From: a bacterium
GTDB taxonomy: Bacteria; Planctomycetota; Planctomycetia; Planctomycetales; Planctomycetaceae
Reading direction: 5' to 3'
NCBI GenBank assembly: GCA_016125225.1
Contig: WGME01000012.1
Location: 62,001-126,000, forward strand
Length of the DNA: 64,000 bases
Shown here: one piece after another, positions 13,253-26,500 of the stretch
How the letters are laid out: every line of letters begins with the position of its first letter
Numbering within the stretch: position 1 is the first letter of the stretch
Program-made: the position numbers and the translations under genes
The notes under the pieces: model-generated
The model's database searches: none
Seen by the model: only the letters and a program-made list of their open reading frames with translations
What the model was told of the DNA's origin: nothing

Positions 13253-13377
13253 GCAGTGAATGATACCGCCAACGCCATAAAAGTCACTGATTTCGTTGCC
13301 AGATCCGCACAGCCGACATATGTGCGCCAGGAGTCAGCCCTTTTTCAATGTTGTGACTTTCGAGATCCTTGGCATCT

Positions 13378-13554
13378 GAGCCCCGGAGGGGCCGCAGATT
13401 GTAGCCCCAGGCGCGAGCCTGGGGACGAGAGGGTATGCCACACGGAATCAGCCCCGGAGGGGCGTCAGATCAGGTTGCCGTTTGATCCTGACGCCCCTCC
13501 GGGGCTGGGATGTTATGGCTCGTATTCGATCCCCCAGGCTCGCGCCTGGGGCTA
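13378..13554. repeat. nested palindromic intergenic repeat
   Basis: Two short palindromes recur in opposite orientations. GCCCCGGAGGGGC is at 13380-13392 and 13451-13463, with its complement near 13493-13505. GCCCCAGGCGCGAGCCTGGGG is at 13404-13424, with its complement at 13532-13552. The 13450-13471 block (with GGGGCGTCAGATC) pairs with 13484-13506 across a short loop, and the flanking CAGGCGCGAGCCTG blocks pair outside it. The whole can fold as a nested hairpin of about 150 bases. The surrounding 13253-13837 stretch holds no convincing gene. Confidence 0.7.
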
Positions 13555-13837
13555 AGGTCTTTCGCTCGTCCGGGGGACATCACAGAAAACATTGCCTGAT
13601 CCGTATAACGGTCATACGTCTGACACAGAACCAGTTCCCTATCCAAAAGTTCCGATTTTTGAGACTCCACCAGTTGCCCCGGGTTCCGGCTTGGAAGGCG
13701 GGGGACGGCGGCGTAAAATATCGGATGCTGCTGATGAATCGGCGAGTTGCGGCCGCGACTTGCCCGACACCTTGACTCCACTGATGAGGGGTTCGTCTTG
13801 AACCGATCGTCAGCCCCACCGGAACGGATCGCCCGCC

Positions 13838-23166: not shown

Positions 23167-23927
23167 CGGCAAAGTCAAATCCGCATCTCCCGGAAGGAGG
23201 CAATAACGATTCGGGTTTCAGTGGGCATCATCAACGGGAGCGGGCGGGTTGGTCAACCGCCCGGATGTCTGATTGAGACGACTGGATTCGTTGACTCTGC
23301 GGGTTGCGGCGAGATTGCAAGCGGGGGATGGGCTGCTCTCGTATGAGGGACGCAAGGCTGACACGGATTTTCCTGTTAATCTTGGGGTGTCATAACAGGC
23401 ACGTTCGGAACTTCAGGAAAGGGCGCTAGGAAGTCCCCTAGTTTGCGTCTTCGTGTCTATTGTGATTGGCCTCGCTCGGAAAAAACGGTCTTTTTGCCGT
23501 CAAAGTCGCATGCATTTTAACCAGGTGGCACAGGCGACAATGTCGCGTTAGAAATCGACGTAAGTAATTTGCAATTTAACGACTTGCGAGATTCAAGGCG
23601 TCTTGCATGGGAATCCGATCATTGGGGCTAGTCCCGCCATATGCAAACTGCCTCGAAACCGGATTGTGATCACGGAGCGAGCCAGGCCGGGACTGCCAGG
23701 TCCAACGGGCAGGCTCGCCCGTATCACCTGCGGTTACGTGTTAACGGTCGGAGCTTGGTGAAAGCGTGAAGGGAAGGTCGCTGTCGGAATTCGACGCGCG
23801 TCGCCAGTGGCGACAGACCAGAGGCGGAATGGTTCGTTGCCGCCGGGTGTTCTGACAGAGGACCGCACGACTTTCACAGGTCATGACGACCAGGTTCGAG
23901 ATTCCCAAGGGAAGGAGACGTTGCTCT
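23167..23927. other. long non-coding region upstream of the Cys-rich protein
   Basis: About 760 bases with no believable gene. A hairpin ACGGGC-AGGCTC-GCCCGT is at 23705-23722. Short AT-rich patches (around 23510-23580) may contain the promoter of the strongly structured gene that follows. The ribosome-binding site AAGGAG at 23912-23917 lies 10 bases before ATG 23928. Confidence 0.4.
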
Positions 23928-25142
23928 ATGTGGATCAAGATGAGTGGCGCACTGCTCGCCGCGATGAGCATGATCAACCTGGCGAACGCCGGGCTGCTCG
24001 GCTCAAAGATGAGCTGCGGTGCCGAAAAGGGATGTGGTTGTGCATCGACATGCCAACCTGCTTGTTGCAAGCCGGTGATTGTGAAGCCTTGCTGCCCGAA
24101 CGTGTATACGTATCAGCGCAAGTGCTCGGACATCAAGCCGCCTTGCTGTGACACCTGCTGCCCGCCGGCCACCTGCTGTGCCCCGGCTGCTGCCCCGACC
24201 GCTTGCGGTCCTGCTGCTTGTGCCCCGGCTTGTGCGGCTCCTGCCGCCTGTGCTCCGGCTTGTGCAGCTCCCGCTGCCTGTGCCCCGGCTCCTGCTGCTT
24301 GTGCCCCGGCCTGTGCGGCTCCCGCCGCCTGTGCTCCGGCCCCGGCTGCTTGTGCTCCGGCCTGTGCCGCTCCTGCTGCTGCCTGTGCTCCGGCCGCTTG
24401 TGCCCCGGCTTGTGCAGCTCCCGCTGCCAGCTGTGCTCCCGCGACCTGTGCTGCTCCGTGTGCCCCGGCCTGTGCCGCTCCGGCGACCTGTGCCCCGGCT
24501 TGCTGCAGCACCAAAGTTAAGGGTGGCCTGCTGAGCGGTCTGTTCAAGAAGACCAAGATGGACTGCGGTAGCTGCAACACCTGCGCTGCTCCGGCTGCTT
24601 GCACCCCGGCCTCTTGTGCCGCTCCGTGCGAAACCCGCTGCTGCAACGCTGATCCTTGCGAAGTTGCGACGCTGATCTACCAATCGCAAACCGCTTGCTA
24701 CGCCAAGGATCGTCGCTCGGCCATCCACAAGCTGGGTGACAAGTTCGACTGCATCTGCAACCCCGAAATCATGACGGCCTTCATCGTTGGACTCAACGAT
24801 TGCGACGAACGCGTTCGCCGCAAGGCCGCCGACGAAATCGGCGATCAGATCCGCAAGAACTGCTGCTGCTGCCCCGAAGTGGTTGCCGCTCTGACCTGTG
24901 CTCTGGCTGACTGCGACAAGCACGTTGTCAAGCAAGCCACCGAAGCCCTGGAACTGTGCGGTTACGAAGTGGTTGACGGCTGCTGCGATCCTTGTGCCGC
25001 TACCTGCACCACCGGTGCTTGTGGCAGCAACGGTTGTGCTCCCGCCGCCGCTCCGATGGCCCCGGCCGCTCCGGCTCCGGTGCCCCCGATGACCACCAAT
25101 CGCAACAGCGGTTTGGGTCAGCTCCTCGGTCTCCTGGACTAG
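23928..25142 (+). CDS. secreted Ala-Pro-Cys repeat protein with HEAT-like C-terminal region
   Basis: About 404 residues with roughly 60 cysteines. A signal peptide (MSGALLAAMSMINLANA) is followed by a Cys-cluster region (CCPNVYTYQRKC, CCDTCCPPATCC). Next comes a low-complexity block with six copies of CAPACAAP, a second small Cys-rich block, and a helical segment resembling HEAT repeats (RRSAIHKLGDKFDC; DERVRRKAADEIGDQIRK; DKHVVKQATEALELCG) that is itself studded with Cys. It ends in a Pro/Ala tail. ATG 23928 is fixed by AAGGAG 10 bases upstream. Planctomycete cell walls are known to be proteinaceous and Cys-rich; a structural envelope role is inferred, not shown. A terminator follows the stop. 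Confidence 0.85.
   Translation: MWIKMSGALLAAMSMINLANAGLLGSKMSCGAEKGCGCASTCQPACCKPVIVKPCCPNVYTYQRKCSDIKPPCCDTCCPPATCCAPAAAPTACGPAACAPACAAPAACAPACAAPAACAPAPAACAPACAAPAACAPAPAACAPACAAPAAACAPAACAPACAAPAASCAPATCAAPCAPACAAPATCAPACCSTKVKGGLLSGLFKKTKMDCGSCNTCAAPAACTPASCAAPCETRCCNADPCEVATLIYQSQTACYAKDRRSAIHKLGDKFDCICNPEIMTAFIVGLNDCDERVRRKAADEIGDQIRKNCCCCPEVVAALTCALADCDKHVVKQATEALELCGYEVVDGCCDPCAATCTTGACGSNGCAPAAAPMAPAAPAPVPPMTTNRNSGLGQLLGLLD
24180..24513 (+). repeat. degenerate tandem coding repeat (Ala-Cys-Ala-Pro units)
   Basis: Tandem DNA units built on GCTTGTGCCCCGGC, GCTCCTGCC and variants encode CAPACAAP and CAPAPAA. Unit lengths alternate, and third positions differ between units. The protein repeat is therefore better conserved than the DNA, consistent with selection on the protein. 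Confidence 0.8.
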
Positions 25143-25192
25143 TTCCAGCAGATCGATGACCAACCCGGTCCATCGTGATTGATTGATAACGG

Positions 25193-25230
25193 AAGCCCAG
25201 AGATTTCGGTCTCTGGGCTTCTGTGTTTTT
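25193..25230 (+). terminator. rho-independent terminator of the Cys-rich protein gene
   Basis: The inverted repeat AAGCCCAGAGA / TCTCTGGGCTT flanks the loop TTTCGG at 25193-25220. CTGTGTTTTT follows on the + strand, about 50 bases after the stop. Confidence 0.85.
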
Positions 25231-25282
25231 GGGGCCAATAATGAAAAGCCGCCACCGCCGCATGGCGGGCATTCCGCGTCTG

Positions 25283-26500
25283 TCACTCCGTGTCATTCAC
25301 AACCGCTTCCACCCGGCTGATCACTTCGCCATCGGGCAGCAAGGTCGAGAGCGCATCGCCAATTCGTACCTGTTCGACGGAACGAATCAGCTCCCCGTCA
25401 GGATGCTGCTTGGTCAGCGAATATCCCCGGCTGAGGACGCCCAACGGGCTGAGTGCTTCCAACTGAGCGGCGGCGGCTTCTAGTTGCTGTTGAGCCAGCA
25501 CGACCTTCGCGCGACTCGCCCGTTGCAACCGTTGCTGCAACTCGTCCAGTAACCGCTGTTGCTCATGAATGCGGTCCATCGGTCGTGTGAAACAGCGGCG
25601 ACCGGCGATCCCATCCAGTTGCAGCCGTGCCCGTGCTGCCCGTTGCTTCAAGCCATTCGGCAATCGGCTGCGAATCTGATCCAATTGCTGCCGCATCTCC
25701 TCACACGAGGGGACCACCAACTCGGCAGCTTCACTCGGTGTCAACGCCCGGCGATCGGCCACGAGGTCGGCAATGGTCACATCGATCTCATGACCGACGG
25801 CACTGACCACGGGAATCTTGCAGGCTACAATCGCGCGAGCGACCAGTTCGGTATTGAAGGCCCATAAGTCTTCGAGACTTCCCCCGCCGCGACCGGTGAT
25901 TACCACATCCACCTCAGGGATGCGATGCACATAAGCCAGGGCGGCGGCGATTTGCGGGGCCGCTTCATCACCTTGAACAGCGACAGGCAGCACAACGATA
26001 TCGACTAGCGGCCAACGGCGTGACAACACCTGCAGCATGTCGCGGACCGCAGCCCCCTGAGCACTGGTGATGAGTGCGACCCGACGAGGAAACCGTGGCA
26101 ACGGACGTTTTCGATCGGGTTCGAAGAGTCCTTCCGCAGCCAGTTTTTCCTGCAACTGCCGCAACGCGAGCTCAAGCGCACCCATGCCCTGCGGTTGCAG
26201 CGATTGACAGACAATCTGATAGTTGCCCCGGGGCGGATAGACTTCGATGCCCCCACGTGCGATCACCTCCATGCCATCACGCAGATCGAACTTGAGGCGT
26301 TGAGCGGCGGTTCGCCACATCACGGCTTTCAACTGAGCCGCTTCATCTTTCAAAGTGAAGTACAAATGCCCCGACCCGGCACGCGTCAGGTTGGACACTT
26401 CCCCCGCAACCCACACATCGGGAAAGCACTGTTCAACAACCCCGCGCAAGACCTGCGTCAAATCATGAACGGAGAGAATGACCGGGGCATCATCAGACAT
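25283..26500 (-). CDS. xseA: exodeoxyribonuclease VII large subunit
   Basis: Catalytic subunit of exonuclease VII, 405 residues, which with XseB degrades single-stranded DNA in repair and recombination. The N-terminal OB-fold shows DVWVAGEVSNLTRAGSGHLYFTLKD in pieces. The catalytic core has RVALITSAQGAAVRDMLQVL, PAVQGDEAAPQI and the hallmark DVVITGRGGGSLEDLWAFN, then VVSAVGHEIDVTIADLVADRR. A coiled-coil C-terminal part (QQRLLDELQQRLQRASRAK) and the conserved LSPLGVLSRGYSLT close it. Length is slightly shorter than E. coli XseA (456). The small subunit xseB is not adjacent. Confidence 0.96.
   Translation of the reverse strand: MSDDAPVILSVHDLTQVLRGVVEQCFPDVWVAGEVSNLTRAGSGHLYFTLKDEAAQLKAVMWRTAAQRLKFDLRDGMEVIARGGIEVYPPRGNYQIVCQSLQPQGMGALELALRQLQEKLAAEGLFEPDRKRPLPRFPRRVALITSAQGAAVRDMLQVLSRRWPLVDIVVLPVAVQGDEAAPQIAAALAYVHRIPEVDVVITGRGGGSLEDLWAFNTELVARAIVACKIPVVSAVGHEIDVTIADLVADRRALTPSEAAELVVPSCEEMRQQLDQIRSRLPNGLKQRAARARLQLDGIAGRRCFTRPMDRIHEQQRLLDELQQRLQRASRAKVVLAQQQLEAAAAQLEALSPLGVLSRGYSLTKQHPDGELIRSVEQVRIGDALSTLLPDGEVISRVEAVVNDTE

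Follow-up and report, generated by a model that had tools for sequence, protein, structure and literature searches.

Disulfide-bonded protein walls were reported decades ago in budding planctomycetes. The wall of the group has been reported as a protein sacculus held together by disulfide bonds (PMC2754498), and that of Isosphaera pallida, which belongs to another lineage, was reported to be free of cysteine and proline (PMC3072084). The phylum as such is, contrary to older work, not peptidoglycan-free (PMC10632474). Cell-wall preparations from other planctomycetes have yielded cysteine-rich YTV proteins (PMC8567305), and Planctopirus limnophila has a YTV protein in its essential set (PMC10632474); in the literature searched, YTV proteins were the only ones tied to disulfide-bonded planctomycete walls. 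In another PVC lineage, the chlamydial OmcA and OmcB are cysteine-rich outer membrane complex proteins believed to underlie the structure of the envelope (PMC2811131), and the mammalian keratin-associated proteins are high-sulfur proteins that cross-link a scaffold via disulfides (PMC3107952).

The gene described here lies in a window of 64,000 nucleotides (the whole stretch of DNA that was analysed) and encodes a member of an apparently unnamed family of cysteine-rich HEAT proteins, which we consider to be, probably, structural and disulfide-cross-linked proteins of the envelope, counterparts to the YTV wall proteins without themselves being YTV proteins. Both groups are secreted or secreted-looking, cysteine-rich, repetitive and planctomycete-restricted, avoid CxC and CxxC, and always occur in the same genomes. 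The family differs from the YTV proteins (PF07639) of Planctomycetales in lacking the YTV repeat, in having a HEAT domain and an Ala/Pro/Cys linker, and in its far narrower distribution, which is one family as against 101 of 393 phylum genomes for YTV. Like OmcA and OmcB, the window protein is cysteine-rich and, probably, of the envelope, and its search against Pfam or NCBIfam revealed no sequence relation to them. To our knowledge, OmcA and OmcB have neither a HEAT domain nor a comparable repeat linker. Some family members (L004 and L040) have CCxP-like units that recall the keratin-associated proteins; the latter are unrelated eukaryotic matrix proteins without a HEAT domain, none of their Pfam models matched the window protein at E ≤ 1, and the likeness would be convergent.

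Reading Frame and Apparent Signal Peptide

The coding sequence and the protein segments within it are as follows:

23928 to 25142, plus strand: coding sequence of 404 amino acids with 62 cysteines, conserved in about 50 genomes
23928 to 23990, plus strand: apparent signal peptide (amino acids 1–21), cut between ANA and G, type I by inspection of the sequence
24015 to 24167, plus strand: cysteine-rich N-module (amino acids 30–80; CGAEKGCGCASTCQPACCKPVIVKPCCPNVYTYQRKCSDIKPPCCDTCCP), from alignment A4 and profile matches
24168 to 24644, plus strand: hypervariable Cys/Ala/Pro linker (amino acids 81–239), from member comparison and AlphaFold; the CAPACAAP region (amino acids 98–185) corresponds to nucleotides 24219–24482
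24507 to 24566, plus strand: internal segment STKVKGGLLSGLFKKTKMDC (amino acids 194–213), from sequence comparison of members
24654 to 24956, plus strand: HEAT domain (amino acids 243–343) of three helical hairpins, from AlphaFold, Foldseek and profiles
25104 to 25139, plus strand: C-terminal motif NSGLGQLLGLLD after a Pro/Ala spacer, family consensus L..LFGL

The frame was accepted as real coding sequence because it is open and conserved at the protein level over about 50 genomes. Its start was placed at ATG 23928 and not at ATG 23883, since five orthologues have in-frame stops upstream, at the leader position, which ruled out the N-terminal extension. Two antisense open reading frames (24003–25286 and 24113–24646) were judged to arise as by-products of the codon pattern for Cys, Ala and Pro, their cross-locus "conservation" mirroring that of the sense frame.

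Cysteine accounts for 15.3% of the protein, or about one residue in six, in line with the approximately 60 cysteines given in the preliminary description, which had also listed six CAPACAAP units, several CC pairs and a signal peptide. Exactly six CAPACAAP units were found, at amino acids 98, 108, 125, 142, 158, and 178, compared to a mean of 0.0005 and a maximum of one in composition shuffles, and the CC dipeptides numbered 11 (overlaps counted). The predicted signal peptide, MWIKMSGALLAAMSMINLANA followed by G, was assigned by eye; its Ala21 is invariant across a 28-member alignment (A3), and a signal-peptide-like N-terminus is kept across the family.

Protein Architecture

Judged from the member alignments, the order of modules is signal peptide, N-module, cysteine linker, HEAT domain, Pro/Ala spacer and C-terminal motif, and cysteine columns are conserved. 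The HEAT domain is the best-conserved part of the family. Pfam HEAT_2 (PF13646) matched 28 of 28 members at E ≤ 0.01, and in the window protein it aligned to amino acids 255–341 with 25.4 bits, below the cutoff of 27.7. For the region of residues ~240–370, which had been noted as a Cys-studded HEAT-like domain, AlphaFold predicted six helices at amino acids 243–343, stacked as antiparallel hairpins (pLDDT 91.5, pTM 0.85), and the earlier assignment was thereby borne out. Foldseek analysis of this model retrieved alphaRep, a designed HEAT protein (TM 0.69, E 3.9e-4), the family profile matched alphaRep chains with E-values down to 7.6e-23, and no viral fold matches to the model were significant. 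The fold is the same as that of HEAT_2 and alphaRep repeats, from which the window protein is distinguished by cysteines in the turns and by fusion to cysteine-rich modules: in the HEAT model, 12 of the 14 cysteines are outside the helices, and no inter-helix turn region is without cysteine. A CxC at amino acids 275/277 of this domain is conserved in 98% of members.

The N-module has the consensus CGxxKSCGCxxTCQPxCCKPxIxRPCxxxVYTYQRxCSxIKPPCC (alignment A4) and contains the stretch YTYQRKCS.IKPPCC. The linker, which contains little Lys or Arg, had a pLDDT mostly below 50, and is predicted to be disordered, ranges from 15 to 211 amino acids among members, and its identity to the nearest relative is 69%, compared to 93% in the HEAT domain. 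Its motif changes with the member: CAPACAAP in the window protein is replaced by CCAPEATCCPDPS in L004, CPPKCDCPPN in L009, GNACGNGC in L060, and CGPAAANC in L030. CAPACAAP, listed in the preliminary description, was therefore rejected as a family signature and is a local variant. A GLLxxLF/GLFxGLF stretch resembling the segment at amino acids 194–213 was found again in some members, and the C-terminal motif often reads YFPSRL...L..LFGL. One member from genus g8 (L068) is without the HEAT domain and keeps the N-module, the cysteine linker and the C-terminal motif. The genome of a relative also contains a second, shorter secreted-looking CAP-repeat protein (L069, G034:C1:1091500-1093300), a 240-amino acid frame with 36 cysteines that has neither the N-module nor the HEAT domain.

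Cysteine Density and Spacing

On comparison of the linker sequences, what is held constant in the family is cysteine density, not CAPACAAP. Cysteine makes up ~14% of most members, and its fraction in 46 linkers was nearly constant, with a dispersion of 1.35, barely above sampling, while the values for Ala, Gly, and Pro were, respectively, 8.2, 6.1, and 3.0. The longest cysteine-free run per linker had a median of 9.5 amino acids, and spacings of 4 to 7 were enriched. In the same 46 linkers, CxC was observed 11 times against 191 expected (z -16) and CxxC 23 times against 150 expected (z -11); the repeats and common descent of the linkers inflate these z-scores, and 14 distinct-motif representatives gave the same pattern. 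CxC and CxxC are likewise avoided in the YTV wall proteins that these genomes encode, and this common avoidance favours disulfide cross-linking over metal binding. An extracytoplasmic metal-binding or storage protein similar to metallothionein, whose thiols would chelate Cu, Zn or Cd, would agree with the very high thiol content, the CC pairs and the conserved HEAT CxC, but it is rather unlikely, given that the usual metal-thiolate spacings are precisely those depleted in the linkers, that the linker motif is freely replaced and that conserved neighbouring genes are lacking at the orthologue loci.

Of 49 members, 29 had an odd total of cysteines, and this does not agree with a closed set of internal disulfides. 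This result also bears on the idea of a secreted HEAT adaptor for protein binding, in which the cysteines would serve only for internal stabilisation or as a redox buffer. The strong conservation of the HEAT domain and its resemblance to alphaRep binders are consistent with such an adaptor, as is the retention of the domain in a Cys-poor member with 11 cysteines (L028, G011:C47:9329-9787); however, the conserved cysteine density of the linker, the odd totals, and the loss of HEAT in L068 with retention of its cysteine scaffold and C-terminal motif make it improbable.

Family and Distribution

The gene occurs as one copy in its own genome, and 32 of 59 relatives had a match, all within the Planctomycetaceae. 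In a phylum sample of 393 genomes (46 Planctomycetaceae and 347 others), the HEAT-domain profile matched 39 of the 46 Planctomycetaceae, once each, and none of the 347 others, while the N-module profile matched 40 of the 46, with only two marginal matches elsewhere; homologues, for which the preliminary description had proposed a search, are thus present across Planctomycetaceae. By both profiles, five of the 46 genomes (genera g5, g14, and g63) are without the family and, since a few members are moreover Cys-poor, it is not indispensable across the clade. A genome outside this sample (G025) carries three copies. The matches listed from the species collection belong to Gimesia, Schlesneria, Fuerstiella, and other Planctomycetaceae metagenome bins, and among the matches listed, an Omnitrophota bin accounted for the sole outside one, a generic HEAT protein; the distribution outside the phylum is less certain. 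No homologues were found on plasmids. On these profile and sequence matches, the family is clade-restricted and usually single-copy. The NCBIfam search of the 404-amino acid protein gave no match and Pfam only the below-cutoff HEAT_2, in accordance with the earlier view of an architecture outside named families; we regard it as an undescribed-looking family of a known kind, the cysteine-rich envelope proteins of planctomycetes, with a new architecture.

Expression Signals and Genomic Context

Two conserved elements flank the coding sequence:

23902 to 23918, plus strand: leader block TTCCCAAGGGAAGGAGA, an extended ribosome-binding site ending 9 nt before the start codon, from orthologue comparison
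25189 to 25224, plus strand: intrinsic-terminator-like hairpin of 16 pairs, with comparable hairpins in orthologues

The leader block consists of a palindrome-like TTCCC[AT]AGGGAA followed by GGAGA. GGAGA was present at the leader position in 41 of 49 orthologues and the full CCCWAGGGAAGGAGA in 20 of 49, and many of them carry the form TTCCC[AT]AGGGAAGGAGA ahead of the start codon. The core TTCCCWAGGGAAGGAG had one exact occurrence in the whole genome. The palindrome and GGAGA may form an element peculiar to this gene, either translational or an operator. A regulon governed by the element was rejected, because the exact element occurs once in the genome and a site with one mismatch (L114) is not oriented as a leader to any gene. 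Conservation of this leader and those of the orthologues seems to exceed the need of a ribosome site alone.

Genomic context analyses revealed a divergent beta-lactamase-family gene on one side, separated by a gap of 749 bp, and a convergent xseA on the other, and no operon or syntenic partner is shared across the orthologue loci beyond small groups of related genomes. Almost every orthologue has a strong hairpin downstream of its stop codon. The claim of a strong terminator therefore held, and the unshared neighbours and conserved solo signals supported that of an independent transcription unit; the long leader also claimed is the gap to the divergent gene. At the sequence level, the gene stands alone and its signals for translation and for termination are conserved, which suggests that its product may be abundant.

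Envelope Context

YTV wall proteins were detected in 46 of 46 Planctomycetaceae genomes, including that of the window, where they have 38–72 cysteines each. The window protein had no PF07639 match at E ≤ 1, nor had any of 28 members at E ≤ 0.01, and the cysteine contents of the family and of the YTV proteins were not correlated between genomes (Spearman 0.12). A repeat type shared with YTV proteins was rejected as a general property, being confined to L066. This YTV protein of the same genome (G000:C41 near 338813-338917) carries Ala-Pro-Cys patches of CAP type at each end as well as in the middle. One YTV protein from the genome of L028 was also the poorest of those compared, with 13 cysteines in 409 amino acids.

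An envelope role is plausible because the co-occurring YTV proteins are cysteine-rich and were recovered in wall preparations (PMC8567305); this recovery, the membership of a YTV protein in an essential set, the presence of YTV proteins in all 46 genomes and the disulfide-bonded sacculus favour a disulfide cross-linker of the envelope. From these data we infer export, a wall location, a disulfide-bonded state and partners for the protein, and the literature searched contained no proteomic evidence for it. After Sec export and cleavage of the signal peptide, docking on partners or on other copies would fall to the HEAT domain together with the modules at the N- and C-termini. The disordered linker, with about 20–40 regularly spaced thiols, would form disulfides between molecules, both among copies of the protein and, plausibly, to the YTV wall proteins. 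Its sequence could vary freely provided that cysteine density and spacing were kept, and the HEAT cysteines, mostly in turns, would be exposed for cross-linking.

The Planctomycetaceae are budding, attaching bacteria, and a distribution limited to this family, together with a secreted-looking protein whose low-complexity linker diversifies fast, would also suit a part of a surface appendage or of a matrix (stalk, fimbria or holdfast), still disulfide-cross-linked and distinct from the wall itself. The present evidence does not separate wall from appendage, and no appendage genes are linked at the orthologue loci; we consider this location unlikely.

A serious weakness of the favoured envelope cross-linker concerns how hundreds of exported thiols become oxidised without recognisable Dsb or VKOR. 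Pfam searches (E ≤ 0.001) for DsbA, DsbB, VKOR, and Thioredoxin_4 found none in the genome of the window, with control genomes positive, and the YTV proteins of this genome pose the same puzzle. An unrecognised oxidant may act, the thiols may become oxidised spontaneously, or they may stay reduced. As a clade-specific, usually single-copy cysteine scaffold, the family provides a concrete second wall candidate, testable in cultured Gimesia. More tentatively, it might represent a second, unrelated class of wall-building cysteine proteins specific to Planctomycetaceae, with a HEAT-docked linker under selection for cysteine density and spacing and not for sequence, oxidised without a recognised Dsb or VKOR, and cross-linking the YTV wall much as keratin-associated proteins cross-link their scaffold.

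Elsewhere in the window, an Acido-Lenti-1 RNA match (Rfam RF01687, 39.5 bits) was located at 13379–13424 on the minus strand, inside inverted GC-rich repeats around 13376–13560.
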